This document shows, one piece after another, positions 124 to 22,609 of a stretch of DNA of 64,000 nucleotides. Both the position numbers and the translations under genes were made by a program. The stretch's first letter is position 1. Each line of letters opens with the position of its first letter. Location: contig JAIPDL010000005.1 in assembly GCA_021737695.1 (NCBI GenBank), positions 1 through 64,000 of the forward strand, read 5' to 3'. This stretch comes from Desulfotignum sp. GTDB lineage: Bacteria; Desulfobacterota; Desulfobacteria; Desulfobacterales; Desulfobacteraceae. The notes below the pieces were generated by a model. That model was not told where the DNA came from. It ran no database searches and saw only the letters and a list, made by a program, of their open reading frames with translations.

Positions 124-1539
124 TCACTGAGAATTGCTGGATTTAGTGGCTTCATCTGCTTCACCGACCATGAAATCATAATCACATGTCATGCCGCTGG
201 ATGAGGCAATGACCTTTACTTTTCCTTTATCATTAAACTCGACCTGACCATCGGATACGCTGGCAATGACCGGGTTGTTGGTGACCCAGACGATCTCAAG
301 AAAATCAAGCAGAGACAGATTGACGTTTTCTCCTTTGTTGTTTTTATAATTGACATACAGATGAATGATTTCATCGACATCATAATAGTCCTTGTCAGGG
401 CTTCCCTCTGCCAGGTATATCTGAAGGCTTGAGTAAGGCTGACCTGAATACGGATCTGAAGGAATTGTCGTGGTGGTGGTTGGAGGAACTGTGGTAGTAG
501 TGGTTGTCATGGTGGTGGTGGTAGTTGTAGTAGTTGAAGGTAATGTCGTAGTAGTGGTCGTTGGGGGTATTGTGGTCGTGGTGGTTGGTGGAACTGTGGT
601 GGTGGTCGTTGGGGGTAATGTTGTTGTTGTGGTCGTGGTGGTGGTGGTCGTGGTTATCACTTTTTTGACCAGCACAGCACTGACCGTCTTGACCGGGCTG
701 AGGTTCCCGGCGATGTCCCTGGCCTGGACATGGAGATACCATGTTCCGTCAACGCCCGATTTTTCAGCCGTCTTCGTGTTCTTGAATACTCCACTGGGGC
801 TCCATGTCTTCTCCTGATTGACGGCAAAGCGAAAGAAGGCCTCTTCATCAGCGCTCCAGGACCAGGTCACGCTTTCCTGCAGGCTGTTGTCATCACTCAG
901 ACCTTGAATGACAGGGGGAGTCAGGTCAATGACAAAAGGGCCGACATGGGTCACCGGGCTGAGCGCCCCATTATTGTCTACAAACACAAGATGGAAGTAA
1001 TGATTGCCTTCCGGTAAAGCCGGACTCGTGGCAGTGCTGTTGGTGCTGTCAACAGCGGCATCCGGTTCAGTCTGGGATGCCTTGTCCCAGACATAAGAGT
1101 ACCCTGCTTCATAGCCGTCTGGTTCCCAGGTAATGGTGATCGTATTGTCATTGCTCTGGGTATTGGTTTGAATGGACGAAGAAACAATGACCGGCGGATA
1201 TTTGACAGGGTTGAGGGGTTTATTCCAGGTGATATCGGCTGAATCTACCAGAATGTCCAGGTCGGTGACTGCCGGGGCATCAGAGGGATCGTCTGCCCCT
1301 GCAGTCAGGGACAACGTTTTTTTCCAGGTGATATCTGCCTCAGCGGTCATGATGTCCAGATCCGTGACTGCCGGGGCATCGGAAGGGTCAGTGGCGCCTG
1401 CGCTTAGGGACAGGGGTTTGGACCACACGATGTCGACATCTGATATTTGTAAGGTAGAAGCGATGGAAAACGGGCAGATCACCATTGAAAAAAATAACGG
1501 GAAAGCAATGGAAAAAGAATAATAAACGAATTTACACAT
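124..1539 (-). CDS. secreted Thr-rich protein with N-terminal repeats and C-terminal BIG2-like domain
   Basis: Not a protein I recognise as a whole. I chose the ATG at 1539, which has GGTGGA eight bases upstream; a GTG at 1551 is an alternative. A signal peptide is followed by three copies of a short repeat of about 40 residues (pattern DxxITWxKxLSLxAGAxDPSDAPAVTDLDI). Two Ig/Fn3-like segments follow, one of them matching 'DLTPPVI...WSADEEAFF'. Next comes a long low-complexity linker of Thr runs broken by VPP, IPP or LPP, typical of extended extracellular linkers. The last ~90 residues contain 'WVTNNPVIASVSDG', which resembles the BIG2-like domain placed before the caspase-like domains of the proteins at 13.8-24 kb. 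That supports membership of the same secreted set. No enzymatic domain is visible. It is the last gene of a minus-strand run, 17 bases after the 276-aa gene. Confidence 0.75.
   Translation of the reverse strand: MCKFVYYSFSIAFPLFFSMVICPFSIASTLQISDVDIVWSKPLSLSAGATDPSDAPAVTDLDIMTAEADITWKKTLSLTAGADDPSDAPAVTDLDILVDSADITWNKPLNPVKYPPVIVSSSIQTNTQSNDNTITITWEPDGYEAGYSYVWDKASQTEPDAAVDSTNSTATSPALPEGNHYFHLVFVDNNGALSPVTHVGPFVIDLTPPVIQGLSDDNSLQESVTWSWSADEEAFFRFAVNQEKTWSPSGVFKNTKTAEKSGVDGTWYLHVQARDIAGNLSPVKTVSAVLVKKVITTTTTTTTTTTTLPPTTTTTVPPTTTTTIPPTTTTTTLPSTTTTTTTTMTTTTTTVPPTTTTTIPSDPYSGQPYSSLQIYLAEGSPDKDYYDVDEIIHLYVNYKNNKGENVNLSLLDFLEIVWVTNNPVIASVSDGQVEFNDKGKVKVIASSSGMTCDYDFMVGEADEATKSSNSQ
470..660. repeat. 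simple-sequence tract encoding poly-Thr linker
   Basis: A tract dominated by GTG/GTA/GTT triplets on the plus strand, read as ACC/ACT/ACA Thr codons on the coding minus strand. VPP, IPP or LPP tripeptides interrupt it every 5-10 residues. It lies inside the Thr-rich secreted protein, and its length could vary between strains by replication slippage. Confidence 0.85.
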
Positions 1540-1556
1540 AATATTTTCCACCGGTT

Positions 1557-2975: not shown

Positions 2976-4583
2976 CTATTCCAGTGTGATGGCCTGCAAT
3001 GCATTCACCCAGAAGCCTTCTCCCGGACTGATGGTTGAAAGCACACCAAAGTCTTTGGCAGCAGCATAATCTCCCTGTGTGTCTTCGCCCGGCAGATACA
3101 CGGCCCAGCCGCCGTCTTTCCACTTCCACACAGAGGCAATATTGGCTTCCTTTCCAAAGATAAGGGTCGTCACATCCACGACCTGGTCGCTCTTAAGGCC
3201 TGCCAGGTTCCAGCCGGAGGTCAAGGACAGGCTGCCAGTGACAGGGACGCCTTCAATGGAAACAGTGTCTGATCCCAGACTGTTTACCCAGAAGCCCTCG
3301 CCCGGATTGATGGTTGAAAGCACACCAAAGTCTTTGGCAGCGGCATACTCTCCCTGTGTGTCTTCGCCCGGCAGATACACGGCCCAGCCGCCATCTTTCC
3401 ACTTCCACACACTGGCAAACCTGGTGTCGTCAGACAGCTTCTTTGCAGCGTTGAATGCAATACCGGCGCTCAATAAATTCCACCCGGAAATGACATTTAG
3501 TTCAATGGTTTCAGAAGAGAGAAACGTAACCGGGGTACTGAACGCCATGCTATTGATTTCATCGCTCTCTTTGACATAGGCAAGATCAATGTTGTCCGTG
3601 GTCCAGGTAATCGTCGGGACTGAAGAACTGCTCGGAAATGAATCAGGCGGAACGATATAATAGTATTGTGATGTTCCAACAATGAGACTGCCTTCATCTT
3701 TTCCCGCGCCATAACTTATTCGACGGGTGTCGATATGATGAAGATCTCTCTGGGGTTCGTATGGCACCCATCCAAGGGATGGATAATAGACCTCTAACCA
3801 GGCATGGGGACCCGGACTCCAGTCGATGGATGTAAAGTTTCCACTTTGATAGGGCAGGGAATAGGGGTTGGACAGGGCAAGCCCGACCACAATCCTTGCC
3901 GGAATTCCCGCAGCCCTCAACAGCGCACCGGCCAGATGAGAAAAATTGGAGCAGTCACCCACTTTATCCGTGTAGGTGGAAACTGCGTCGATATTCGGGT
4001 TTGGCCCGTAGGCAATATTGTCCATGACCCATCCGCATATGGCAGTTGCTGCCTGCCACTGCTGATCAAGGCCATCGGTCAGGTCGTCTGCCAGTGATAT
4101 CAGCATGCTGTTGTCTGACTGGACCTGATCTGTGGCCGCAAGGAACGGGGCAGCATCCTGGGGAATCTGACTGTTGTCAACTGGAAACAGATCGCTTGTC
4201 ACAAATTGATCCCAGTCTGCCGTGGTGGCAATGTCACCGGTGACTTTCCCCTGAATGGTTCCGGATAAAGGGTTGTTCCAGACCAGTTCAACGTATTGAT
4301 TGCCAAAATCGTCCGTCTTTATTTCAGATGAATCTGGCTGAGGGGTGAAAATGATTGTTGGAAAATCAGCACTCTGGCTGTTTATGCCGTAATCATAATT
4401 CTGGGGAAGCGGATAGTTATAAATATATTTTGTGATGCCGGAAGGCATGGAAATTTCAATTTTTTCTTCAAGAGTAAAGGCGGCATTCATGGTTCCGGAA
4501 TAATAATATATATTGGCTGAGGCCGTGCTGCTGATGCCTGCCGCCATACATATACAAAATGCAAGAATAAGAATTTTTTTCAT
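2976..4583 (-). CDS. secreted transglutaminase-like protein with two C-terminal WKW repeats
   Basis: The signal peptide ends near 'STASA', and the ATG abuts the stop of the CAP gene (TAGATG). A transglutaminase-like core (about residues 175-290) shows the Cys motif 'KVGDCSNFSHLAG', the His motif 'GPHAWLEVYYP' and 'WVPYEPQRD' for the acidic residue, so the Cys-His-Asp triad looks intact. Proteins of this superfamily act as peptidases or transamidases. The C-terminus carries two nearly identical copies of the WKW repeat (GWNL ... SVWKWKDGGWAVYLPGEDTQG ... GEGFWVN), ending 'LQAITLE'. The same repeat ends the caspase-like proteins encoded 10-20 kb away, which suggests a common location or partner. 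It probably acts on cell-surface or extracellular peptide bonds; the substrate is unknown. Confidence 0.85.
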   Translation of the reverse strand: MKKILILAFCICMAAGISSTASANIYYYSGTMNAAFTLEEKIEISMPSGITKYIYNYPLPQNYDYGINSQSADFPTIIFTPQPDSSEIKTDDFGNQYVELVWNNPLSGTIQGKVTGDIATTADWDQFVTSDLFPVDNSQIPQDAAPFLAATDQVQSDNSMLISLADDLTDGLDQQWQAATAICGWVMDNIAYGPNPNIDAVSTYTDKVGDCSNFSHLAGALLRAAGIPARIVVGLALSNPYSLPYQSGNFTSIDWSPGPHAWLEVYYPSLGWVPYEPQRDLHHIDTRRISYGAGKDEGSLIVGTSQYYYIVPPDSFPSSSSVPTITWTTDNIDLAYVKESDEINSMAFSTPVTFLSSETIELNVISGWNLLSAGIAFNAAKKLSDDTRFASVWKWKDGGWAVYLPGEDTQGEYAAAKDFGVLSTINPGEGFWVNSLGSDTVSIEGVPVTGSLSLTSGWNLAGLKSDQVVDVTTLIFGKEANIASVWKWKDGGWAVYLPGEDTQGDYAAAKDFGVLSTISPGEGFWVNALQAITLE

Positions 4584-5351
4584 CTAGTTAACCTTAATAT
4601 CAAAATAGTTGGTCTTTCGATATTTTCCGTTTTCATACACCCGGAACAGGAAGCCATATTGGCCATCGCCGAGGTCAAAATCAAAACTCACGGAAAAATT
4701 CTGCGTGGAATCCGGCAGGACGATCTTTGTCTTATCAGACACTTCTGCATCCGGTTCCTGTCCAAAGATCATGTCAACCTTTACCTTGTCCACAGGAGTG
4801 ATTCCCTGGATTGTAATGGATTTTCCGGGGGCCACACCAGAACTGGTCTCCAACTTGAAATTGGTAAATGTTATGACACGCTCCAGCATGTGAATCGTCA
4901 GCCATCTCATGTCATCCCCGGCAGAAAATATCTTGACTCCGGCATGGGTCATCCCAGGTGACAGCAATTTGTCCATTGCACCGGTATCTGATTGAATGAC
5001 GTGTTTCAGGACATCCATCGTACCAGCTGCCACGACAACCAGATGATTCATATCGCTCAGTCTTTTACTCAACGCCCGTTCAAAGGGGGGCTGATACACA
5101 GGCGGGCCATCGTCCACTATTTTTTTTACTGCCATATCCTGGCTGTGTTCTGCTGCCACCTGGGTCAGCAGCGGATCGATCGTTACCTCTGGAATCCCAT
5201 GCTCAGTCCTTAATGTATTGACCAGTTCTACAATTACATTCTCTTCAGCTGTCATGTCTATTCCCATTTCTGCGGAACACTGAGCTTCAACGGGATGAAT
5301 CACTATCCAGCAAATGATTGCTATCATAAGAAAACTTAGACAGTTTTTCAA
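4584..5351 (-). CDS. secreted CAP (SCP/PR-1) domain protein
   Basis: The TTG start at 5351 follows AGGAGG at good spacing, and no in-frame ATG lies nearer. The signal peptide ends near 'VEAQC'. Residues ~35-165 resemble the CAP superfamily: 'LVNTLRTEHGIPEVTIDP' then 'LTQVAAEHSQDMA', and a 'THAGVKIF' segment. The usual second His/Glu motif is weak. The remaining C-terminal ~90 residues look like an all-beta domain ('GKSITIQGITPVDKV'). CAP proteins are secreted and have varied roles. The gene is directly followed by the transglutaminase gene and lies downstream of the CHAT/cyclase gene. Confidence 0.75.
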   Translation of the reverse strand: MKNCLSFLMIAIICWIVIHPVEAQCSAEMGIDMTAEENVIVELVNTLRTEHGIPEVTIDPLLTQVAAEHSQDMAVKKIVDDGPPVYQPPFERALSKRLSDMNHLVVVAAGTMDVLKHVIQSDTGAMDKLLSPGMTHAGVKIFSAGDDMRWLTIHMLERVITFTNFKLETSSGVAPGKSITIQGITPVDKVKVDMIFGQEPDAEVSDKTKIVLPDSTQNFSVSFDFDLGDGQYGFLFRVYENGKYRKTNYFDIKVN

Positions 5352-5485: not shown

Positions 5486-8400
5486 TTATTCTCCATGGAT
5501 GGCTTCCAGGCGGAGTCCCTCCTGGAGCGTATTTTTGCCTGCCACTATTCTGGAAAGACTGGTATCAGGCTCAACAGAGACTGTTTTTAGAATGACATCT
5601 TTATCAATCACCTTGAATCGCTGGCCTTCCCTGACTCCGGAATTTTGTCCTGCATTCAATCGGATCCCACTGTCTCCTATCTCTGAGATCCTGGTTCGCA
5701 GCGGGTAAAGTGTTTCTATTTTTTCCAAAAGCGTTTTGGATAATCGATCTGCCAGCACGGATGCGGGTACGGCGCTTCCAACGGATTCATTGACTGCGGC
5801 AGAAATCTTCCCTGTCTCCGTTTCGATAATGCGGAGTGATACCTGGGTCTGGGGACCGGAGTATATGATCTTACCGGAAATGATGAGCCTGGCCGCAATA
5901 ATCCTTCCCAGGGACAATGCCGTGCCTGGATCTGTCAGCTTGGAAACGCCCAGTTTTAATTCTCCCAACAGTGTTTCCAGAAGTGCCCGCTCGACTAACT
6001 GAATCCGGCCGCTCTGGATGATCTGATCCGTAATGGCAGCGGTAAGCAGCCGGTCATCACCTTCCTGAAGGGAGTATCCATGGGTTGCAAAATCCATCAG
6101 CCAAAGGGTTAAAGGGGGAGACGTCCAGTTGTCAGAAGGTGGGACCCGGGCAGGCGTTTTCATGCTTTCCAGCAGGTCCTTGACCATGTTATCGATGTGT
6201 TCCTGCTTTTCCCGATCCCCTGCCAAAGCAACTTTCCTGCTGGTTTCTTTGGTCATCGCCGCAAGGGCCTGATCGTTGGGCGCAAATTTCCCTGCCTTTC
6301 CCAGCAATGCCAGGGCCTGGTTGTAATCTCCGCTGTCTTCAAGCAGAAATGCCTGGGACAGGTATCCCGTGCTGCTCTCCGGGGCGGCATCCGTGGCCTG
6401 CTGATAATACTTCATGGCTGCGTCCGGCTGTTGTTGAACTGAGGCGATGCGGCCCAGACCGGCAAAGGCCTCGGCCTTTTGCAAATCGGTGCCATTTGTA
6501 GCGGCAAGCGCACGTTGATAGGCGGCTGCTGCCGCATTCAGATCTCCCTTTCTCATATAGATGTTTCCGGCAATCAGATAGGGCAAACGAACATCCGGGC
6601 TTTTTTCCTCGATAAGACGGCAGGCATTCAATGCCTCCTCGAAATGGCCCTGGGTGTAATAGGTCAGGGCGGCTTTTTCATATTCCTGGGTCCCCTGCCT
6701 CAACAGCCCTGGATACCCCCAAAGCATGACAGCAGCCAACAGGATAATCCCGGCAGCCACGGCCCACCAGGCCCGCTTTTTTCTTGAAACTTGGGGTTCT
6801 GCAAAATCAATGACCTCTTCACTGGCCCTGACGCCTGCTTCTGTCTTGGAAATACGGGCCATCCCGGGTTTGTCATCCTGAAAGACCCGGGCATGCCGGT
6901 CATTCTCCCCCACTTCCTTGATTTGATCCATATAATTGAAGGTAGGATCTCCGTACAGAAGATAACTTGCCCAGACGATATTTTCCTCTCCATATTGCTT
7001 GATCAAAGCAGCCCGTGCATTCCGTATGGCCTCACCCGTCGTCATTCCCAACAATAACTGTTGATAAAATTCCAGGGCAAAATAACTGCTGGGTTCATCC
7101 AGTATCTCCCAGAAGGTTCCCACATAATGTTTGACACCTGTTAAAAGAAAGGCATTGGCCAATCCAAATATCTTATCCTGAAAATGCCCTTTTAATGCCC
7201 ATTCATTGGTGCGGGCTGACTGGCATGCATTTGCAAAAATAAGAGCGGGCATGGCGGCAGCACCGGCCATTTTTGTAATGTCGCTGGCTTTAAAGGTGCA
7301 TTTGGTCAATTGCCATCCGCTTTTTTCCGGATTTTCAGCGTTGTAATCCGCATGGCCGGCAAAATGAACAAAATCAAAATTTCTGATCTTTCCCTTGATA
7401 AAATCTGAAGTGATGTCACCAGAATGTAAAGATACATCAATAAAATCCTTGTCCTTGTCCATATAATCGCGCACCTGAGTGCCCTCTGCATAGGCGCCCT
7501 TTAAATCACCCTTGGGATCTGCCAGTATCAACATCTTCAGGGGCGGGGCCAAAACCCGGTTCCTGATACCCGGAACAGTCTGCCGGGTCCTGACAAGTCG
7601 CCCCATATTGAACCGCTGGCAAAGGAACTGCTGACCATCATTGAGCAATTCCCAGGGGACCTGAACCAGTCGCTCATCAAGGTTCAGGCTAAGATATTCT
7701 GTCGTGGTGTTTTTGATTTTCTCTTTGATCGTATGGGTGAACAGCTCATCGTAAAAGACCTGGCCAACTTCTCTGAGCTTTACCAGTATCTCACGGGGCA
7801 CACTGCCCCTGCGGCTGGCATTATTCAAAATATCCACCATCTCAAGGCATCGCGATTCAATCCATTCAATGGAAACAGGGATCTCTTCATAGTGCCGGAT
7901 CGTACTCGCCTCACCTGTCATCTGCTCGCAGGCGCTGATCTTGAGCCTGTCTCCCTCCCGGGTCACCTCAAGACAAAACACCTTAAGAGGCTGCCTGGAT
8001 TTCTTTTCAGTCAGGGTCTCATGGGATCGAACCTTTGGTGCAATATCGGTCAGACGATCCTCGTCTTTCCAGACCACACGATAGAGATCCAGGCGCCTGG
8101 CTTTACCCGATACCTGGACCGATTCGTGGCGCCTGCACAGAATATCATCTCTTCCCCGCACCTGCTCATAGACCACCTTGGATATCAGTATCTGATCCGC
8201 TCCGGCCGCCGACTGGATACGAGAGGCAACATTGACAACATCCCCATAGACATCCGCCTCTTCCACCAGGGCTTCCCCAACGTTGATCCCGATCTTGACA
8301 TGAATCCTGTCTTTAGATCCTGCCTGGCTGTTATACGCATGCAACCCGTTCTGGATTGCCACAGCTGTTTTAACCGCAGCCAATGACGATGAAAAGGAGA

Positions 8401-8674
8401 CCATAACAGCATCCCCTATCGTCTTAATCAGCACACCCCCGTATTTTTCAATCTGAAGAAATACAATATCATTATGTCGCCTGAGCATGGCCCGGCCGCT
8501 GATATCACCCCTGGTGTCTGTATATTTCGTATAGCCGCAAATATCACTGAAAAGAATGACCACTTCTTTTTTGAAACGCTCCTGGAGCACCTGATCCAGA
8601 CGATCACGCTCCCGCAGAATGCTTTCAATATTGTTGGATATGTCCTCTGCCTCTTTATTCTTATCATCCATCAT
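5486..8674 (-). CDS. class III nucleotide cyclase - CHAT protease - TM - TPR - CsgG-like fusion protein
   Basis: I chose the ATG at 8674, which has AGGG nine bases upstream and overlaps the anti-sigma gene by 11 bases (about 1,062 aa). In order: a class III cyclase (about residues 30-205) with 'FSDICGYT', 'KTIGDAVMVSF', 'GDVVNVASR' (metal Asp residues, Lys and Asp typical of ATP selectors, and the Asn/Arg transition-state pair all present); a CHAT caspase-like protease (about 378-576) with the His motif 'FAGHAD' and the Cys motif 'ANACQSA'; a basic stretch (RKKR) and a transmembrane helix near 633-655; TPRs (about 660-830); and a CsgG/FlgO-like domain (about 850-990) with 'IQLVERALLETLL' and 'LGRIIAARLIISGK'. 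By the positive-inside rule, the cyclase and CHAT domains should be cytoplasmic and the TPR/CsgG part periplasmic. It could therefore relay an envelope signal to cAMP production or proteolysis; both outputs are inferred. It follows an ECF sigma factor and an anti-sigma gene. Confidence 0.88.
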   Translation of the reverse strand: MMDDKNKEAEDISNNIESILRERDRLDQVLQERFKKEVVILFSDICGYTKYTDTRGDISGRAMLRRHNDIVFLQIEKYGGVLIKTIGDAVMVSFSSSLAAVKTAVAIQNGLHAYNSQAGSKDRIHVKIGINVGEALVEEADVYGDVVNVASRIQSAAGADQILISKVVYEQVRGRDDILCRRHESVQVSGKARRLDLYRVVWKDEDRLTDIAPKVRSHETLTEKKSRQPLKVFCLEVTREGDRLKISACEQMTGEASTIRHYEEIPVSIEWIESRCLEMVDILNNASRRGSVPREILVKLREVGQVFYDELFTHTIKEKIKNTTTEYLSLNLDERLVQVPWELLNDGQQFLCQRFNMGRLVRTRQTVPGIRNRVLAPPLKMLILADPKGDLKGAYAEGTQVRDYMDKDKDFIDVSLHSGDITSDFIKGKIRNFDFVHFAGHADYNAENPEKSGWQLTKCTFKASDITKMAGAAAMPALIFANACQSARTNEWALKGHFQDKIFGLANAFLLTGVKHYVGTFWEILDEPSSYFALEFYQQLLLGMTTGEAIRNARAALIKQYGEENIVWASYLLYGDPTFNYMDQIKEVGENDRHARVFQDDKPGMARISKTEAGVRASEEVIDFAEPQVSRKKRAWWAVAAGIILLAAVMLWGYPGLLRQGTQEYEKAALTYYTQGHFEEALNACRLIEEKSPDVRLPYLIAGNIYMRKGDLNAAAAAYQRALAATNGTDLQKAEAFAGLGRIASVQQQPDAAMKYYQQATDAAPESSTGYLSQAFLLEDSGDYNQALALLGKAGKFAPNDQALAAMTKETSRKVALAGDREKQEHIDNMVKDLLESMKTPARVPPSDNWTSPPLTLWLMDFATHGYSLQEGDDRLLTAAITDQIIQSGRIQLVERALLETLLGELKLGVSKLTDPGTALSLGRIIAARLIISGKIIYSGPQTQVSLRIIETETGKISAAVNESVGSAVPASVLADRLSKTLLEKIETLYPLRTRISEIGDSGIRLNAGQNSGVREGQRFKVIDKDVILKTVSVEPDTSLSRIVAGKNTLQEGLRLEAIHGE

Positions 8675-9353
8675 GGCAAGTTTCCCTGATCTCAAAAAAG
8701 TATGTTCCGATTTTTGCACCATCCTTTACAAAAACAAAGTTGTAATGGCCAAAGGGGATGTCTTCAAATAACGCGTACCCTTCATTCAATAGATATGAGG
8801 CAATCTCCCTTTCATCTCTTTTCAGTGTCACCCTAAGCGTTTTTTGGGGCCTGTCATATTCTGGTGATTCCACGCGGATGCAGGCCTTGTTGTGTCCTGT
8901 CTTTTCAATTTTGATCTCTGTTTCTATCCCGACAAACTGTTTCCTGACAGTAACAAGGTCTTTGGATATGGTTTGCACTGAACCACGAATGGGCGCAAAC
9001 CGCCATTCTGCCCAGGGCCGTGAACAAAATTCTGATATGCTTGAGCACAGATTTTTCATCATTTTATAAGGGGACATGCCCATATCAGATCGCTTCCGCA
9101 TTGGTATCCCAGGCTTGCGAGATTTTTCAGCCTGTCTGTTTATAAGGCGTACGGCAGCCTCCGTCAATTCTTTTGGCGCGGCATCCAGATGCAACCGGCT
9201 TTTGCCCCGCACAACACCATTTACAGCCACAACTGTCTCCAGACATGTCTGACACACGGAAAGATGTGCTTCCATCTTGATTCTATCTTCATCAGAAAGA
9301 CGGCCTTCAAAATAATCAGCAAGCATTTCATCATTCGGACATCTTATTTCCAT
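8664..9353 (-). CDS. zinc-finger (ZAS-type) anti-sigma-like protein, soluble
   Basis: The N-terminus has the HxxxCxxC zinc-binding signature of ZAS anti-sigma factors ('HLSVCQTC', about residue 30), after 'LADYFEGRLSD', which is typical of the zf-HC2 family. Unlike many anti-sigma factors it shows no transmembrane helix. The C-terminal half is predicted all-beta ('TLRVTLKRDEREI', 'EDIPFGHYNFVFV'), resembling a prealbumin-like or carboxypeptidase-regulatory-like sandwich. The gene lies 73 bases after the ECF sigma gene and overlaps the CHAT/cyclase gene, so it probably controls that sigma factor. How a signal would release the sigma factor is unknown. The link to the CHAT protein is inferred from gene order. 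Confidence 0.8.
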   Translation of the reverse strand: MEIRCPNDEMLADYFEGRLSDEDRIKMEAHLSVCQTCLETVVAVNGVVRGKSRLHLDAAPKELTEAAVRLINRQAEKSRKPGIPMRKRSDMGMSPYKMMKNLCSSISEFCSRPWAEWRFAPIRGSVQTISKDLVTVRKQFVGIETEIKIEKTGHNKACIRVESPEYDRPQKTLRVTLKRDEREIASYLLNEGYALFEDIPFGHYNFVFVKDGAKIGTYFFEIRETCHDG

Positions 9354-9426
9354 AACTAACTCCGTTAAAGCATCGCCTAAAGCAATTCATTTCCTAACAT
9401 ATATAGACGTAATAATTATTGTTTTC

Positions 9427-10044
9427 TTACATCCTGCTATTCGCAACCTCGTCCACATACAGTTTTAATTTCTGAATTGCCCGATGTTTTACCGTATACG
9501 CGTTTTCAATGGAAATCTGCATAAGCTCAGCAACTTGTGCAATAGAAAGCCCATGCTCAAAATAAAGTTTCATAAACAATTTATATCGTGAAGACAGGCT
9601 TTGGATTCCATCCTGAAGTAAATGCCCTTGTTTCTCCTTGTTCATTGCCGCCCATGGTTCAATCTCATCCTGCTTAATCCCGAATGCCTGCTCGATCGGA
9701 ACCAGTTTTTTCTGCCACACCATGGAATCAAGGTCATTTTTTCTGAGATGATCCAGCACTGTTCTTACTGCCACCATCCTGATCCACGACCCGAGGGAGC
9801 ACCCATTTTTACCCTGATACTGCCGGAGCCTTTTATAGTCATTCTCAAAAAGTCGTAAAAATATGGTGTTATGGAGATCTTCAAGGTCATATGTATTGAA
9901 AGAAACCTGTTTGCTCATCAAGGTGTACTGGACAGCCCCATAAACCAGGTCTGAAAATCTCCGGACCAGGGTTTCTGCTGCCTTCCTGTTGCCGGAAAAA
10001 CAACGTGAAAGCAGCAGTCGATCTTCCTTAACAGAAAAAGTCAC
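9427..10044 (-). CDS. ECF-type RNA polymerase sigma factor
   Basis: A 205-aa protein with the region 2 pattern ('LVRRFSDLVYGAVQYT', 'DLEDLHNTIFLRLFEN', 'SLGSWIRMVAVRTVLDHLRK') and a C-terminal region 4 helix-turn-helix ('LSIAQVAELMQISIENAYTVKHRA'-type, shown here only as residues ~165-190). The GTG start overlaps the stop of the upstream lipoprotein gene (GTGA), so the two are translationally coupled. The next gene encodes a ZAS-type protein, the usual partner of ECF sigma factors. It probably directs transcription of parts of this envelope cluster, but I did not identify a convincing repeated promoter motif by eye. Confidence 0.88.
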   Translation of the reverse strand: MTFSVKEDRLLLSRCFSGNRKAAETLVRRFSDLVYGAVQYTLMSKQVSFNTYDLEDLHNTIFLRLFENDYKRLRQYQGKNGCSLGSWIRMVAVRTVLDHLRKNDLDSMVWQKKLVPIEQAFGIKQDEIEPWAAMNKEKQGHLLQDGIQSLSSRYKLFMKLYFEHGLSIAQVAELMQISIENAYTVKHRAIQKLKLYVDEVANSRM

Positions 10045-12062
10045 TCCGTAATAACCTTGTAAAGCGGTTGGACTATATCATCTCCGGCATCCAGAAGCAC
10101 TGCTTTTGACATTTCAGGCATCACCTGTGTCACACGGGCGCGTCCGATAATCTGGTTATCCGCCCCTATTATCTTTCCTGTAACCGGATGTTTTACAGGT
10201 TCTTCTCGATAGACGATCAGCCTTCTCTGATTCTTTATCCTGCCCTGCCCAAGGTCCGTAAATATGTGTTCGCCCTTTTTCTGTACAACCAATCCATCCA
10301 GTAAAGGGAACTCCCTGTGAAATTTAACGGCCATCCCTTCAGCCAGAGACCTTAATGCGGCAGGGTCTTTCACTTCGTCATAAACGTCCTCAGCGGCCAG
10401 AATTTCTGATGTTTCCGTATCAATCAGTCTGGCCACTATCTCAATACCCGTGCGGGTTTCAATAATTTTGCCTGCAATAATGGACTGGGCTGCCACTAAC
10501 CTGCCCAGTTCCAGGGCAGTGCTCTTGTCGATCAGCTTTGTCCGGCTGAATTTTTGTTCGCTTAAAATGATATCAAGCTTATCCCTCTCTACGATCCTGA
10601 ATCGATTTTGATCAATCAAATGAGCGATCAGGTTATCCTGGAAAGATAGCCCGGCCTGGGCAATGGCCCCTTTGGTCTCAAAGGGAAAAACTGTCAGACT
10701 CAGGCGCTCACTGAGCTGCAGTGCCCGGGGAATCTTTCTTATCACCGAGATATTCCGGGTTACCCGATTGCCTGCCTTGTCCTTCGCCTCAATCAAAATA
10801 TTATTTTCCCCCTCCTTCAAATCCACAAGATGGCTGAAAAAGATGCTCCGGCCCTGGCGCCGCAACATTGAAACCCCATTTACAGCAAGACTCACAATAT
10901 TGGTATCGTCACTTATCTGACCTTCAAGATATATCTTTTCCAGAAAAACCGTTTGCGTATCTGTCCAGCCCTTGAGATTTATTGTTGGCGGACGGGTATC
11001 TTCAGGACCAAATAGGCCGGCTACAAGATAACTTGTAAAATCAGAATCTGCGCTGGCAAGCAGTACGGGAGCGGAAGCCATGGATTGGGAATTGAAAATG
11101 GGAATAATGGTGGATGTCTGGTTTCCCAGTCGATCTCTGGTGACCAATTCAAAATCATTTTTGTCTGCGATAAACTGTTCAGAGAAAAAAAACTCCTGAC
11201 TCTCCTGTACGGGAATGGACCGGCCATTGATTCTCAGTTCAGACACGCCGGCGTCATCATAAATCGAGCCCAGGACGGTCACTTCTCGTCCTGACGATGC
11301 ATCATCCAACGATATGTCATCCAGCGTAATCATGGGCCCTTCGCGGTCCACATGGATAATCAACCGGTCTTTTGTCACTTTTCCCAAAAGATTGATTGCT
11401 TCCACCTCAATAGCATGCCGCCCCTGGGAAAGAATCAGGCTTTTTTCAAAAGGAACTTTTTTTTGAGACCCTTCCAGAAACAGGGGCACACCCTTTATTA
11501 AAAGATCTGAGATATATTGTTCGTCTTCAGCAACACCCGACACAACCACAGGGTCTTCCCGGGTCCAGACCTCATCCGTCTCAAAATTGAGGGTAAGCCG
11601 TGGCGGCAGCACCTCTTTGGCCTCATGTTCAATCAACGCCTTGCGGACCTTGTCAAGATAGAACCGGGCCTTTGCTGAAGGAAAATGGGTTAAAGAAAGC
11701 GCCAGTTCCTTTCCCGCCTTATTGAGATTTCCAGTCAAATAATGAATGATGCCCAATTCCCTGTGGGGAAAATAATCAACAAAGTGCATCCCGTAAGTTC
11801 GGGCCATACGCTGATCTTTTTTCCTATGTTTGGCAGCCTGTTTGAGATCTGCAACGGCCTCCTGGTAAAATTGCCCCTCTGCAAAAGAAAGCCCGCGTTC
11901 ATAGTAATTCCACCATCTGTGCCGGAAAGCGCCCTTTGTCACACCATAGGCCTTGTTATCTTTAATGTAGCGATTGTCCTTAGAAGAGGAAACACATCCG
12001 GAAAACAGGCACAAAGCAATAAGGATTGTCAAAACAAGTCCTTTTTCCATAGCAAACTTCAA
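10041..12062 (-). CDS. lipoprotein with TPR-like, Ig-like and CsgG-like domains
   Basis: The TTG at 12062 lies five bases after AGGAGG and gives 'MKFAMEKGLVLTILIALC' with the lipobox LFSGC, so this is a lipoprotein; the in-frame ATG at 12050 is an alternative. After a short TPR-like part (about residues 40-130) come repeated Ig-like beta domains ('LIIHVDREGPMITLDD', 'NNILIEAKDKAGNRVTR'). A CsgG/FlgO-like domain follows (about 470-590: 'FRIVERDKLDIILSEQ', 'LGRLVAAQSIIAGKII'), and a short beta-rich tail. The CsgG-like domain is clearly related to that of the CHAT/cyclase protein three genes on. The gene overlaps the sigma factor gene and lies 10 bases after the outer-membrane protein gene, so all are probably one operon. 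It likely resides in the periplasmic face of a membrane. Confidence 0.83.
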   Translation of the reverse strand: MKFAMEKGLVLTILIALCLFSGCVSSSKDNRYIKDNKAYGVTKGAFRHRWWNYYERGLSFAEGQFYQEAVADLKQAAKHRKKDQRMARTYGMHFVDYFPHRELGIIHYLTGNLNKAGKELALSLTHFPSAKARFYLDKVRKALIEHEAKEVLPPRLTLNFETDEVWTREDPVVVSGVAEDEQYISDLLIKGVPLFLEGSQKKVPFEKSLILSQGRHAIEVEAINLLGKVTKDRLIIHVDREGPMITLDDISLDDASSGREVTVLGSIYDDAGVSELRINGRSIPVQESQEFFFSEQFIADKNDFELVTRDRLGNQTSTIIPIFNSQSMASAPVLLASADSDFTSYLVAGLFGPEDTRPPTINLKGWTDTQTVFLEKIYLEGQISDDTNIVSLAVNGVSMLRRQGRSIFFSHLVDLKEGENNILIEAKDKAGNRVTRNISVIRKIPRALQLSERLSLTVFPFETKGAIAQAGLSFQDNLIAHLIDQNRFRIVERDKLDIILSEQKFSRTKLIDKSTALELGRLVAAQSIIAGKIIETRTGIEIVARLIDTETSEILAAEDVYDEVKDPAALRSLAEGMAVKFHREFPLLDGLVVQKKGEHIFTDLGQGRIKNQRRLIVYREEPVKHPVTGKIIGADNQIIGRARVTQVMPEMSKAVLLDAGDDIVQPLYKVITE

Positions 12063-12072
12063 TGCTTCCTCC

Positions 12073-13434
12073 TTAAAAATGATAGATAACAGACATATAC
12101 ACCGAGTGCTGATCCACATCCTGGTGAGAGGGTTCGTTGCCCACCGTCGTTGTTCTTACGTTCCTGCCGAACCGGTATTGATAGGCGACATCATAAACCA
12201 TTTTCTTATAGGCGATTCCCGTGCCAAAGCTGATGCCCCAGAAATCTTCTGGATTCTTTTCCGATGGTTCGGAATCAGAAAAAATCCCTGCGCGAATCGG
12301 CACGATCGTCTTTTCCCCGATAATCAGATATTCCCCCCCCAGCCTGACCTGTGTGGTTGCGCAAACATCAGACTGGCTTTGTACTTTTCCCGTAATGGGG
12401 TTGACTACGGTGCCATCTGCACGATGAAGCGCATAATCGTCCCATTGTGTTCGATACACATCTAACCCTAAAGTAAGGGCATCGTTTAGCCGTGCGGAAA
12501 GTCCCACCCCATAGGACATGGGCATATCCAGGGTCTGGTCTTCTGAATAATTGATCTGACTGGACGTGTTGGATCCAGGGGCCGTGGGGAAGGTAACAGA
12601 GGAGTCCGCATTGTAATCATGGGTTAATCTGGCGGAAAAAGGAGATTTAAACACAGCACCCATGGAAAACATCTGGTTCATATTCCAGAAAATCCCTGCA
12701 TGATAATTAAAACCGCTCATCTCGTATTTTTCACGGATGCTGGTGGTCACCGTAAATGGAAATCCGGCAAACGTTCCCGTGCCTGTGGAATCATAAGCAG
12801 ATTTCCAGCCGTTATCTTGAAACATACCTTCCCAGAAATTCAGGGTAAAACCAAAAGATATTTCAGGGGTTATCTGAACGGCAAAGGCAGGGGAAATGGT
12901 TCTCAAGCCCCCTTCCTGCTGGTAATCAATGCTGTTATTAAGGGTCAGCGGCGGTCCGGAAGAAGGATTGTCCGTATAGCTGAATTCAACTTTCTTGTTG
13001 AAATCATACAGGTGCTGGTAGTTTAACGACACAATCATGTTCCAGTTCAGGAAATTAAATGGCCAGGCCAGGCTGAAGTAATTGAGTTCAAATGTGGAAA
13101 CCCTTTGAGGACCGGATGCCTGGGGAAAGGCTGTATAGGATGTGTCTTCTGTCCTGTGGCTGTAAGCCCCCACAACGGAGATTTCAGGTGTCTCAAGCTG
13201 GATAAGGCCGGCAGGGTTCCAGGATGCGGCGGTTGCATCATCGGCAACCCCGATGAATGCCCCTCCCATACCCAGGGCCCTTGCGCCCGAGCCCACGGGA
13301 TTTGGTGACGATGATATCGTTATGGTTTGAGCAATCTGGGCATTTACTCTGATTACAACCAGAAAAATCAATAATATGGAAACAGGCAGTACAACCATCC
13401 ACCTCTGAAAAATTCGATAGGCCACTGAAATCAC
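12073..13434 (-). CDS. outer-membrane beta-barrel protein, PorV/FadL (OmpP1) family
   Basis: The GTG start at 13434 has AAGGA upstream; a Met at residue 13 is an alternative. The signal peptide ends near 'RVNAQ'. The mature N-terminus 'SSSPNPVGSGARALGMGGAF' with 'ADDATAASWNPAGL' is characteristic of the PorV/FadL/OmpP1 long-chain transporter-like barrels. The rest alternates in the manner of transmembrane beta strands and ends in 'YMSVIYHF', a terminal aromatic residue as required by the BAM machinery. FadL-like proteins move hydrophobic compounds; PorV-like ones act in protein export. Either is possible here. It is the first gene of the operon-like run that includes the ECF sigma factor and the CHAT/cyclase protein. 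Confidence 0.85.
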   Translation of the reverse strand: MISVAYRIFQRWMVVLPVSILLIFLVVIRVNAQIAQTITISSSPNPVGSGARALGMGGAFIGVADDATAASWNPAGLIQLETPEISVVGAYSHRTEDTSYTAFPQASGPQRVSTFELNYFSLAWPFNFLNWNMIVSLNYQHLYDFNKKVEFSYTDNPSSGPPLTLNNSIDYQQEGGLRTISPAFAVQITPEISFGFTLNFWEGMFQDNGWKSAYDSTGTGTFAGFPFTVTTSIREKYEMSGFNYHAGIFWNMNQMFSMGAVFKSPFSARLTHDYNADSSVTFPTAPGSNTSSQINYSEDQTLDMPMSYGVGLSARLNDALTLGLDVYRTQWDDYALHRADGTVVNPITGKVQSQSDVCATTQVRLGGEYLIIGEKTIVPIRAGIFSDSEPSEKNPEDFWGISFGTGIAYKKMVYDVAYQYRFGRNVRTTTVGNEPSHQDVDQHSVYMSVIYHF

Positions 13435-13768
13435 CGGTCCTTTATTTCCTTAACTGCTCAATAACCAGCCTGAAGGGTTAAGGACTCAGATCAATTGTCC
13501 CGGCGCTAAAAGCCTTCAGTCTGTCTATCTGAGACAGTTGCAAGTGTCTCCTGCTTGTTTAGACGAACCTATTTCCAATTTCTTACAATACAATTTGAAT
13601 TTCTTCAAGAGGATAACCGCCTTTTTCAGTGCTGACGCATGTTATTAATAATTGCGCCTACCTTACCGACGGTTTAGGCGGCGCTCTCCGACTGATCGCC
13701 GAGGCGATAAACCGCCCACGTGTTCCCTGTCATTACCAGACACTGCTTGAAATCTGTCCCGTTTTACC
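13435..13768. other. 334-base intergenic region with a WKW-repeat remnant
   Basis: Separates the GC-rich protease block from the outer-membrane protein operon. On the minus strand at about 13675-13741, just after the big protease gene stops, it reads 'GNTWAVYRLGDQSESAA' then a stop. This matches 'GDTWAVHLFGDQAESQAY' of the second WKW repeat in the PQQ-propeller protein (about 21890-21955). It is therefore a broken piece of a WKW repeat. The AT-richer part at 13441-13660 probably holds the promoter for the operon that follows, but no clear -35/-10 pair stands out. Confidence 0.6.
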
Positions 13769-16700
13769 CTACTGCAGCACCACCGCCTCTGTGGCATTCA
13801 CCCAGAAGCCTTCGCCGGGGGTGATCTCCTCCAGCAGTGCAAACCCTTTGCTGGCGGCGTAGGCGGCACCCAGGTCATTTTCACCCGGCAGAAATACGGC
13901 CCATCCGCCATCTTGCCACTTCCAGAGCGATGCCACAGCATCCGTTTTGCCGCTGAGGAGGGCGGCGACGGTGGTTTCCTGGCTGTCCTTCAGGGCCACC
14001 AGGTTCCAGCCGGGGGTCAGTTGCAGGGGGCCGGATGCCGGGGTGCCGGAAAGGGTTACGCTGCCCGCTTGCAGACTGTTGACCCAGAACCCCTCGCCGG
14101 GCTCGATGGTGGTAAGACCAGCAAAGCCTTTTCCGGCCGCGTAGCTGCCGGGCTCAACCTCGCCGGGCAGATAGACCGCCCAGCTGCCGGCATCCCATTT
14201 CCAGATGCTGGCATAGGCGGCGGTGTCGGCAAAGGTGTCGGCCACTGTTACCGAGGTTCGGGTTCCCAGCAGGTTCCAGCCCGCTGCCAGGGGGAGGGTC
14301 ACCGGGCTCTGGCTGCCCAGCGAGAACATCACGGGCTCGCTGCTGAATACCTCACCCAGGCTGTCCTCCAGGCAATAGGTCAGCAGGTACTGACCCGGTT
14401 CGTTCAGCCCCTCGATGGCGCCGCTGAAGGTGATCTCCCCCGTACCCGGCTGGATGGCAAAATTGATCTTGACCGCCTGGCAGGTGGGGGTTTCACCCGC
14501 CTGTACCTCCTGACCCACCTGGGGCGGCACCAGCCAGGCGTAGGCGTTCATCCCGGTGGAATCCACGATATCGGCGCTGCCGTTCAGGGTGAGGGTGCCT
14601 TCACTGTTGGGAACCAGGGTGCCATCCTTACCGCTGTAATCGGTAAAAAAGGAGGCGCTGGCCGAGGCAAAGCCCCCCACCAGGGGATTGTCCCACAGGG
14701 CCGGGGCATTGGCCGACGACTGCTGGGGAGTCTGCTGATTGATCTCCACCTTGGCCTCCGCACTCTCGAAAGCCGTTGCCAGGGTGACCCCCTTGCTCAA
14801 CTCTTCCGCCAGATAAGCGGTAAAGGTATTCTGGTGGTGGGTGGTGGGCACGTTATAGGAATTGGCATCGTTGCTGGTGATGATCAGGCGGTTTTCACCC
14901 TGCAGGGTGTCAAGCCAGTTGCCGGAATAACAGGCCTCGGCCAGCACCACCACGGCCCGCCCGGTGGCGGTTTGGAAAGCGTCAAGGGCGGTCTTGAGCG
15001 CGGTGATGGCCAGTTGACTTCCGGCTGAAACCACGAAGTAATCCAGGTAGCCGTGGCCCACCAGTTGAACATAGAGGGGGCCGCTGTTGGCCTGCCCGGC
15101 GGCCCAGCCCGTGATCGCCCCGGTCAAGAGGTCGGCGGCCGAGGCATCGCTGCCCCCAAAGACCCCGTCCACCAGGTCGAAGGCGGAGCCGGGCAGCTTC
15201 TGGGTGCCGTAGGGAGAGAGATAATAGATATCATCGTGGCTCAGTCCCCGGTTGTGGAACATCCGGTAGGCGGTCAGGGCGATATTGCAAAAGGTTTTGC
15301 TCAACCCGGCGCCGCCCAGCTCGCCTTGCCCCAGGCCCGCCACCAGCAGCAGATTGCCGAAACTCTTTTTGCCCGGCTCTCCGGCCACGCTGATCTCATA
15401 GGAGATGGTGCCGCCGTTGTAGATGGCGGTGATCTTTGCCTGGCCCGGCGAGATGGCACTCAGTTTGCCGCTGTTATCCACGCTGACCACCCCGGGATTG
15501 GAGGAGAACCACGCCACCTCCAGCGGGGTGGTCGTGCCGACCAGGCTGACAATCAGGCTGCTCTCCTGCCCGGGCTGGAACTCCACCGGCAGGGTGCCGC
15601 CGGCCGAAGGCAGAATCTGGACGGCCCCCGCCACCACCTTGCCGGTATCGGCCTGGACACTAACAGCCACATGCTCGGAATGGAGCAACTGGCCGCTGAT
15701 GTTTTTAGCGAAATAGACCAGGTCATAAACGCCGGGCTGGTCAAACAGGGCAGCGGAACCCCCGAACAGCTTGTCGCCGCCGAAATAAGCCGTGGCATCA
15801 GCCTCCCCCTGGTAGTCGAGAACCACCTTTTGCGGGGTCACATAGGGAGTGGCGTCACTGTCGGCCAGTTGCTGCTGAAAGACCCCGGGCGGGGTGATAT
15901 CCACCCACACCTCGAAACCATCGGCATAGGGCATATTGAGACTGGCCTCCAGGGTCAGGCTCTCGTACTGGTTGATCAGCACCGGCGCATCTTTGCCCGT
16001 ATGCCCGGTAAAGAGGGGGGTCATGCCCTTGGAGGCAAAGCTGCCCACCAGGTACTGCTGGTCAAGGTCATTGCCCCCTGCGGCCAGTTGCGGGGACTGG
16101 CCGGCGGCAAAGGCCAGGGCCTGGGTCTGGGTGGTGGCGATGTCAAAGGCCTGTTGAAAGGAATTCCCCCGGCCCAGGGCCTCGAAAAAGTAGTGGGAAA
16201 AGGAGAGCGGGTTGTCCGTGGGCAGATTGACCGCCTGCTGGGCCGAAGCCCCGGCGATCACCACCCGCTTGCCGCCGTCTAAAGCGGTGAGCCAGTGCCC
16301 GGCGTAGCACGATTCCACAACGACGATCACGGGCCGGCCCGTGTCCTCCTCGAACTCGGTCAGGGCCTTCTGGACCGCTGATCCGTAAAGCGGAGAGCCG
16401 GTCGACATCGACAGGACCGCCTGGCTGGAAACCCCGTGGTCCAGCAGGTACAGATACAGGGGGCCGTCATTGTCCTGGGCCGGGGCCCAGGTGGTGATCG
16501 CTTCGATGATCTCGGCTTGGAGCCCCCCTTCGCTGACTCCGAACTCCCGGTCGCTGATCAGGGTTTGCGTGCCGGGCAGGGTCTGGGAGCCGTAAGCGCT
16601 GAAGTAAGAAATATCGTCGTGATCAAAACCGCGCTGATAAAAGGTCTGGTAAACAGCGTTGGCCATCCCGGCGAAGTACTGCTCCAGGGTCTCCTCCGGG

Positions 16701-19207: not shown

Positions 19208-19235
19208 GATTCTCTCCTCATCTTTTATTTTCCTG

Positions 19236-22200
19236 TTATTCCGCAACCACGTACAAAGCGCCGTCCAGGCTGGCGGCGTAGATTCGGCCGGCAGCCACGG
19301 CCGGGGTGGCGATGATGGGGCCGGCGGTTTTCATGGCCCACTGCTGCTTGCCCGTGGCGGCATCCAGGCAGTAGAGGTGGGTGTCTTCGCTGCCGACATA
19401 CACCTTGCCGCCTGCAACCACCGGGGCCGAATAGATCGGACCGGCCGCCGTGAAGCTCCAGAGGGTGGTTGGCGAGGTCCCCGGGGCGCTGGTGATATCA
19501 AAGGCGGTCAGCGTGCCGTTCAGGGTGCTGACCAAAAGGGTCGTTTCCCCCACCAGGGCCGGGCGGCCCACCACGGCGCCGTCCAGTTCCAGGGACCAGA
19601 GCAGGGTGCCGTCATCGGCATCGAGGACGTAGAGGGTCTTGTCCTCCTGATCCACGGTGATGGTGTGGGAGGCCACCTGGGGGCTGAACACCACGGTCTG
19701 ATGATCGTCGGTCGTGGTAAAGGGGTAAACGCTCTCTTCACCGTCGTCGTCAAACAGGGTGACGGTCAGGTTGTTCCCGCCGCCGAAATAGAGCCGACCG
19801 TCTGCCGCCAGGGGAGTGGAGAGGATCCGGGCCGGGAGCGGCGCCTGGTCCGCCGCCGGGAATTGCCATTTGATACTCAGGTTATTCACCCCGCCGCCGG
19901 CCCCGAAGGCATAAAAGTAGCCGTCCCAGCAGCCGAAATGGATATTGTCCCCGGCCAGGGCCGCCGAGCCGGTGATATTGGCGGTGAGATAATCGCTGTT
20001 CAGGGCCCAGCCGCCCGTGTCGAAAAAATAGACCCCGTTATCGTTGCCGCCCAGGCTGAGAACCGTGCCGTTGATCACCGGGGTGGTGACAAAATCATGA
20101 TTCCCCGCGCCGGGGAAGGGGTTGACGGTGTCACTGTACCAGCCGTCGGCCCCCTCTCCCGTTGCCTTGTTCAGGGCGCAAAGCCCGTTGTTCAAAGTGG
20201 CGATATAGAGATGGTTCTCGTCCAGGGCCGGGGAACCGAAGATCGGCCGGCCGCTGTCGAATGACCACTTCAACCCGCCGTCGGCCGTGGCCAGGCAATA
20301 GACCCGGCCATCGACTCCGCCGAAATAGACGCTGTCGCCCGCCACCACGGGGGAACCGTAAAGATTGCCCCCGGTCTGGTGGAACCAGAGGGGGGTGACC
20401 ACAGTGATATCCAGGGTCACCACCCCGGCCACCGGCTCCGGCAGGCTCCTGGCCAGCAGCGGGTCATAGCCCTTGGCTGTGACAATATCCACCACGGCCC
20501 CGGCCAGCAGATCGGCCGGCACCTTGGGGAAGTGGTAAGCGCCCGTGTCATCACTGTCCGTCTTCAGGTCAGCAGGATAGATGATCTGGGGCGGAATCCC
20601 GGCAAAACGAAGGTGGACCTCAGCTTCGGCCAGGGGCTGGCCAAGGTGATCCTGCGCACTCCCCTCGATATCGACCCGGGTCAATGATGTCAGGGTGATC
20701 GGGTCGACCGTCACCGAATCTTCTTCGCCGGTAAACGTCGCCAGGGCACCGCCCCGGTAATAGGCCTCGTGGTGGACAATCAGCGAAGCTTCGCTGAGCA
20801 GGTCGGGAATGCCGAGCTGAAACGAACCGTCTGCCTTGGTGACTGTCAGCTCATCAGCGCCGCGCAGGGTGACCATGGCATCGGCCACGGGCTGGCCGTC
20901 GACGTCCACCACGCTGCCGTTGACCGCCTTCTGGCCGCCAAAGAGAAAAACAAAGGAGTGGAGACCATCCATCACCACCCCTGGGCCCCCATGTACCACC
21001 AGGTCGCCGTTCTCCCCGGCAATGGTTCCCCGGCCCACCAGTTGCCACTGCTTGCCCTCCCCTTCGGTTTCATCCAGGTGGGCAAAGAGATAGATCGCCC
21101 CCAGGCCGGCGCCCAGGGCGGTCTGCATCTCGGTCAGGCTCATCTTGTCGGCACTCAGGTTGACCCCCTTCAGGGTGGCCCGCACCTTGCCGCTGAAACC
21201 GGCTGCCTCTGAACTGGTGGCCTCGCCCAGGGAGTCGCTGAGCAGCACCTGGGCCCCACCCACCAGCAGGCTGCTCTGGGAGGCCCCCAGCAGGGTCTCG
21301 ATGGTCTCATAATCGGGGATGCCCGTCATTTGCTGAAAGGTGACCAGGGCCGCCGTGACATCCTTGGTCAACGCCATATCCGTAATGGTGAGGGCGGCGG
21401 AGGTATTATGAATCACCTTGGGCGTCGCCTTGGCCTCCTCGGCCTGGCTCGCCTCCATGATAAAGAGGTTGGGGTATTCTTTGAATGGTTCTCCGGCGGC
21501 TTTCACCTTGCCCAGGAGCAGATCGTCCTGCCCGTCAAAGAGCGGCTCGGGAAGATCGTCACTCTCTTTTTCGTGCAGCAGGTACAGGCTGCGCCCGGTG
21601 CCGGCGGCCAGGTAACCGCCGGTCAGGGCCGCAAAACCGGGGGCCTGGATGGTGATCTCGGTCCCCGTGGTGCTCTGGTAGCTGAAGAGCCCGTCATGAT
21701 CACTCTCGGCGATCTTGACTCCATTTTTATAGATCGACGCCCCCGGCACTGGGGTCAGCCTGCCGCTCACTTTCGCCAGCACCTTTCCCGCCAGGGATAG
21801 GGGGGGGAAGGTCCCCGTGTCCGCGGCGGCATTGACCCAGACCCCCTCGCAGGGCCCGATCGTGTCCAGGACCCCGAACCCCTTGCTTTCCGCGTAGGCT
21901 TGGCTCTCCGCCTGATCACCGAACAGATGGACCGCCCACGTGTCCCCCTGCCAGGCCCAGGCGCTGGTCACTTTGCTGCTGACGGTGGCAAAAAGGTCAT
22001 CCACCGCGGCCCCCTGGCTGCTCCGCAAGCCCACCAGGTTCCAGCCCGCAGACAGGTTCAAGGTGGGGGGGGTGGAATAGTCCCCCTGCAGAACCAGGGT
22101 GGCCGCCTTTTCGTTGTTGACCCAGAAACCCTGCCCGGCCTCGATGGCTGTCAACGGGGCAAAGCCCTTGCTTTGAGCATAGGCCCCGGCCTTGTCCTCG

Positions 22201-22475: not shown

Positions 22476-22609
22476 GTAACCCTCTGAGATTCTTTCATGA
22501 TTTGTTTTGGGCAACCCTCGGTGAAATACCCGATCGGCCCACGGCCGTTATTGTCGATACCCTTTGACGCGGGAATCCCGCCATCCTTGTGCCCTTTCTC
22601 AGCTTCTTG

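Follow-up and report, generated by a model that had tools for sequence, protein, structure and literature searches.

A single gene of Desulfotignum sp. encodes a class III nucleotidyl cyclase, a CHAT peptidase, one transmembrane helix, TPR repeats and a CsgG-like domain in one chain, and it lies beside genes for an ECF sigma factor and a zf-HC2 anti-sigma-like protein. The most likely mechanism to be read from these genes, in which we place reasonable confidence, is that the CHAT peptidase is controlled from the envelope and cuts the anti-sigma protein, thereby freeing the ECF sigma factor. The stretch of DNA analyzed (assembly GCA_021737695.1, contig JAIPDL010000005.1, positions 1 to 64,000) is called the window below. 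Relatives were collected by a scan of genome contigs, which gave nine loci, and by whole-genome searches, which gave more; their neighboring genes were annotated by profile.

The receptor open reading frame runs from 5486 to 8722 on the minus strand and specifies 1078 amino acids. An in-frame ATG at 8674 (residue 17) is an alternative start that would give a product of 1062 amino acids, and both starts lie inside the zf-HC2 gene, whose 3' end overlaps the receptor gene. Pfam matches place the cyclase domain at residues 51 to 208 (8099 to 8572, minus strand; Guanylate_cyc, 68 bits), the CHAT peptidase domain at residues 318 to 592 (6947 to 7771, minus; 111 bits against a cut-off of 24), the TPR repeats at about residues 685 to 822 (6263 to 6670, minus), and a CsgG/LpoB-like domain at residues 889 to 1078 (5489 to 6058, minus), within which LpoB (29 bits) and CsgG (23 bits) both match above cut-off at residues 889 to 972. 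Hydropathy identifies a single transmembrane helix at residues 651 to 669 (6716 to 6772, minus), following the residues RKKR. The positive-inside rule places the CHAT half on the cytosolic side of this helix, and the TPR and CsgG/LpoB-like regions are predicted to be periplasmic. A preliminary description of this DNA had proposed the same chain of domains and had taken its topology from the RKKR-helix signal; the chain of domains was borne out, and a comparable helix occurs at the same place in nearly all full-length relatives. The receptor gene is the sole match to PF12770 in its genome, and among proteins of solved structure its best sequence matches are class III cyclases and TPR proteins. 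Because a whole-chain AlphaFold model, computed from a nine-row alignment, gave CHAT a pLDDT of only about 35, the CHAT fold is assigned here from sequence profiles.

The catalytic residues expected of both enzymes, which the preliminary description had judged intact, were all present when aligned. The cyclase has its metal-binding (D60 and D104), ATP-selecting (K100 and D157), and transition-state (N164 and R168) residues, and the domain match together with all six canonical residues identifies it as a class III nucleotidyl cyclase. The CHAT dyad consists of H457 (codon 7352 to 7354, minus) and C500 (codon 7223 to 7225, minus), and D542 is conserved; with the dyad in place and a profile match above cut-off, the domain is assigned to the CHAT peptidases and is predicted to be active. 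Nor are dyads broken throughout the relatives, since the alignment shows the Cys lost in only 1 of 36 and the His in none. The sole loss, in L115, is in a locus whose surroundings include no lipoprotein, barrel, or sigma pair and whose CHAT protein lacks the juxtamembrane motif described below. The idea of an unusual signal converter is supported as well, in that the architecture, the single helix and the intact active sites recur in relatives. Coupling to a cyclase, however, stood for the window but is not constant: the cyclase is present in 20 and absent in 13 of 33 loci, and some of its residues are changed elsewhere. The metal-binding Asp residues are kept in 19 of the 20 cyclases, the exception being L112 with Glu at both positions, and L108 has no transition-state Asn. 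The ATP-selecting Lys is missing in 4 of 20, being replaced by Glu in L045, L046, and L048 and by Asp in L119; these four enzymes may therefore use another substrate and are possibly guanylate cyclases.

Four further genes make up the operon. The first encodes the zf-HC2 anti-sigma-like protein of 229 amino acids (8664 to 9353, minus; Pfam and NCBIfam), whose finger reads H30-x3-C34-x2-C37, and it is preceded by the gene for a 205-amino-acid ECF sigma factor with a GTG start (9427 to 10044, minus; TIGR02937, 73.5 bits; Sigma70_r2 and r4). The sigma regions 2 and 4 and the H-x3-C-x2-C finger together mark a predicted ECF sigma/zf-HC2 anti-sigma pair. A transmembrane scan predicted no helix in the zf-HC2 protein of the window and none in its relatives, save one borderline stretch in L045. 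In the AlphaFold model of this protein (P0002), a helical N terminus is joined by a linker at residues 48 to 124, mostly below pLDDT 50, to a confident beta sandwich at residues 133 to 221; Foldseek comparison of the model gave generic Ig/FN3-like matches alone, none below E 0.001. The remaining two genes encode a predicted lipoprotein (10041 to 12119, minus; lipobox ALCLFSGC) with TPR-like, Glucodextran_B/Ig, and CsgG domains by Pfam, whose true start is likely the internal Met24, and a FadL/PorV/BamG-like outer-membrane barrel (12073 to 13434, minus; Toluene_X, 60.6 bits), whose matches to NF053685 and PorV_fam fall below the cut-offs of those models. The CsgG-type domain of the receptor resembles the CsgG domain of this adjacent lipoprotein. 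GC content is 0.48 in the operon versus 0.53 in the window.

Beyond the operon, genes for CAP-domain and transglutaminase-like proteins follow the receptor gene (2976 to 5351, minus) and are found downstream in L042 too. The region upstream of the operon (13769 to 23965, minus; GC 0.60 versus 0.53 for the window) encodes large predicted secreted proteins with LVIVD repeats, a PQQ-type propeller, and a legumain-like Peptidase_C13 domain, several of which have a common C-terminal GWNL...PGEGFWVN repeat. A predicted secreted protein with long threonine-rich linkers and no Pfam match is encoded at 124 to 1551 (minus).

Among the relatives, the sigma, zf-HC2 and CHAT genes stay grouped across loci down to about 32% identity. 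The zf-HC2 gene adjoins CHAT in 24 of 32 Desulfobacterota-type loci with enough flanking sequence, and 23 of those 24 also have the sigma gene; the contig of L003 stops within the zf gene, and L124 has its sigma gene some 3 kb upstream. The operon is arranged either as barrel-lipoprotein-sigma-zf-CHAT or as sigma-zf-CHAT-barrel-lipoprotein. When 395 genomes of the phylum were searched with the zf-HC2 protein, 12 matches had E<1e-15, the window's own included; 11 lay beside a CHAT gene, and the twelfth, in G134, has a CHAT gene elsewhere in the same genome. The other 8 of the 32 assessable loci have no adjacent anti-sigma gene, and 7 of these keep the dyad, which suggests that CHAT acts, or once acted, on other substrates in these loci. 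One of the nine loci from the contig scan, in a Desulfobacula MAG, holds a copy that is 84% identical. A search of 12 genomes of the same genus gave no CHAT match comparable to that of the window, so the distribution is patchy. Some loci carry variants of the receptor itself. L112 (7971 to 11564) encodes a Ser/Thr kinase-cyclase-CHAT-TM-CsgG fusion, the cyclase being the one with both metal Asp residues changed to Glu. Three successive CHAT-domain genes with predicted transmembrane helices follow one zf-HC2 gene in L124 (7125 to 15462), and the cyclase-CHAT-TPR-CsgG gene of L110 (7634 to 10942) is split into three open reading frames, by decay or sequencing error, with no adjacent sigma pair.

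A candidate site for cleavage lies in the linker of the anti-sigma protein. Alignment of 25 partner proteins shows an invariant Arg, R123 in the window (FAPIR|GSVQ; codon 8985 to 8987, minus), within a stretch that is otherwise unalignable and has pLDDT below 50; MAFFT misplaced the Arg of L038 by a few columns. It is followed by G, S, or N in 25/25 and preceded by an aliphatic residue, with Ala in one. The strict pattern [VIL]R[GSAT] is found in 23 of the 25 linkers, where 8.8 would be expected from shuffles. The same pattern occurs between CHAT and the membrane helix in 23 of 33 CHAT proteins, against 4.9 expected, and in the window it corresponds to R632 (GVR|ASEE; codon 6827 to 6829, minus). 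Related sequences are not independent in these counts, but one-per-clade sets still exceed the shuffles (9/16 versus 2.6 and 12/14 versus 4.8). The shuffle control ignores position. Most families of clan CD cut after Arg (PMC4357240), and Arg at P1 is described for clostripain, paracaspase, metacaspase, gingipain R, and separase (PMC4357240; for separase also PMC12609080). The conserved linker Arg of the anti-sigma protein reads as a cleavage site, although it could instead be structural. The juxtamembrane motif suggests that CHAT releases itself from the membrane, less strongly than the linker motif points to cleavage of the anti-sigma protein.

Some zf-HC2 anti-sigma proteins, such as ChrR and RsrA and their like, are responsive to metal or redox; the NCBIfam matches here fall below cut-off. 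The sigma pair could accordingly be set off by direct ligand or redox sensing in its zf-HC2 protein, with CHAT acting as a scaffold or general effector protease and the receptor merely co-regulated. The existence of CHAT loci that have no sigma pair would fit this reading. We regard this alternative as unlikely, though worth keeping in view, given that the zf-HC2 family pairs near-exclusively with CHAT, that the linker Arg is invariant, and that the dyad is near-invariant.

A less probable alternative is that the pathway works mainly through the cyclase, and that CHAT chiefly serves to process the receptor at its juxtamembrane Arg, releasing or tuning the cyclase. The juxtamembrane motif counts are in its favor, as are the early-branching rows of the CHAT tree, which bear a cyclase, and L039, in which a cyclase-TPR-CsgG protein without CHAT adjoins the same lipoprotein. 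Neighbors that could read a cyclic nucleotide are found in L114, where a gene for a cNMP-binding protein immediately precedes the receptor gene and one for a kinase that carries a cNMP-binding domain immediately follows the lipoprotein gene. The window's genome has seven cNMP-binding matches, with no link to the receptor evident for any of them. On the other hand, the loci without a cyclase still have CHAT, and almost all of them the sigma pair as well, and the paired Glu substitutions of L112 also argue against a cyclase-first pathway. The CHAT tree, a quick one with several unsure forks, requires the cyclase state to change at least four times and the sigma-pair state at least five times. 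We also considered whether the cyclase serves as the alternative output where the sigma pair is absent, for which the counts were suggestive but not significant (12/7 versus 12/1; Fisher p = 0.10, with rows that are not independent).

Promoter-like sites may link the sigma factor to its own operon. One, TGTAAGAAA-N13-CGTCTAT, lies upstream of the anti-sigma gene (9403 to 9431, minus; exact match), and a second, TGTAAGAAA-N13-CGTCTAA, lies upstream of the barrel gene (13559 to 13587, minus) and is conserved in L042, L045, and L046 and more weakly in L048. Ahead of the barrel gene, five loci have AAGAAA-N13-[CT]GTCT in common with an identical spacer, and sites with at most one core mismatch precede the zf-HC2 gene in L042, L045, L046, L047, L118, L121, L122, L124, L127, and G134. 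In the window's genome the two operon sites alone have at most one mismatch in 16, other matches being at control level, and a genome-wide search for a regulon with this motif found nothing beyond them. G134 has ten sites with at most two mismatches, versus none in a reversed control; one precedes its zf gene, others precede genes for secreted proteins or lipoproteins, two of which flank the CHAT locus, on a stretch of contig without the sigma pair. The exact motif is absent from the diverged clade L032-L038. Variant sites, TAAGAAA...TGCATATAAG, are found in L033 at 7283 to 7307 and 15151 to 15175, one of them between the sigma gene and the zf-HC2 gene, and they suggest that the -10 element has shifted in this clade. 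The conserved sites suggest that the operon may be autoregulated by its ECF sigma factor.

The preliminary description had associated CHAT with death-like responses and had missed the adjacent sigma/anti-sigma pair, whose position beside the receptor gene points to control of transcription instead; nothing speaks for cell death, and we found no support for that reading or for a Pycsar reading. A defense or regulated-death module resembling Pycsar or CHAT-gasdermin systems is very improbable: CHAT does occur in defense systems and the cyclase matches PycC weakly (PADLOC, 32 bits), but the annotated neighboring genes include no effector or defense gene, the partners are envelope and transcription genes, and the promoter sites precede the operon itself and, in G134, mostly genes for secreted proteins or lipoproteins. 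PADLOC matched no defense model to the three neighbors P0002 to P0004.

We therefore return to cleavage of the anti-sigma protein, a pathway whose topology, signal, cleavage, cut site, sigma release, and messenger are inferred. The receptor would be an inner-membrane protein that lets the state of the envelope govern gene expression. The periplasmic half with its TPR and CsgG domains, probably joined in sensing by the CsgG-domain lipoprotein and barrel of the operon, would relay the signal across one helix to the cytosolic CHAT domain, which would cut the anti-sigma protein after Arg123, in the linker between the sigma-binding finger and the beta sandwich. This cut would free the ECF sigma factor to transcribe its own operon, including the anti-sigma and receptor genes, from TGTAAGAAA-N13-CGTCTAT promoters. 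CHAT may in addition detach itself from the membrane by a cut at Arg632, and the cyclase would act as a second, optional output or as a modulator, with a cyclic nucleotide as the parallel product; the cNMP-binding neighbors in L114 count in favor of this reading too. We more tentatively propose that this is an undescribed type of transmembrane receptor, in which a caspase-like protease has both an ECF anti-sigma factor and its own membrane tether as targets, with a cyclase in addition, and in which kinase, cyclase, and CHAT modules are interchangeable on a common TM-CsgG chassis.

Several known systems resemble parts of this pathway. RseA/DegS/RseP likewise joins an envelope signal to anti-sigma proteolysis and ECF sigma release, but here the anti-sigma protein is predicted to reside in the cytosol, it is the protease that crosses the membrane, and the conserved gene set showed no DegS- or RseP-like member. 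FecA/FecR/FecI cell-surface signaling also groups genes for an outer-membrane protein, a sigma factor, and an anti-sigma factor, whereas the barrel here is FadL/PorV-like, the anti-sigma protein has no transmembrane helix, and there is an additional CHAT receptor. Class III transmembrane adenylate cyclases have a catalytic domain with all canonical residues, as here, and a CHAT-less relative exists in L039, but the window's protein differs in its CHAT fusion and TPR/CsgG sensor.

Few CHAT proteases have known substrates. The nearest parallel is the type III-E CRISPR system Craspase/CASP, in which the CHAT protease Csx29 cleaves the sigma inhibitor Csx30 in a loop (PMC10028731). In both cases a CHAT protease gene lies beside genes for an ECF sigma factor and its inhibitor, and the CHAT profile aligns weakly with Csx29 (E ~0.5) with His and Cys in register, although Csx29 lacks an Asp opposite D542 in that alignment. 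The CHAT protein here differs in that it is anchored in the membrane, has a periplasmic half and often includes a cyclase, and the predicted inhibitor has a zf-HC2 domain and a beta sandwich. Neither Cas7-11 (gRAMP) nor a CRISPR array was found among the annotated neighboring genes of the window and its relatives. Most likely, the receptor pathway works like CASP but is not a member of it. The Craspase work, which concerns a CRISPR-guided system, was the only work found, in the papers searched, to join a CHAT domain with an anti-sigma or ECF sigma factor. The predicted cut site and promoter make our model directly testable. If it is true, this membrane-bound and CRISPR-free counterpart would point to the control of sigma factors by CHAT as a broader signaling principle, and would provide an ordinary setting from which pathways of the Csx29/Csx30 type might have come.
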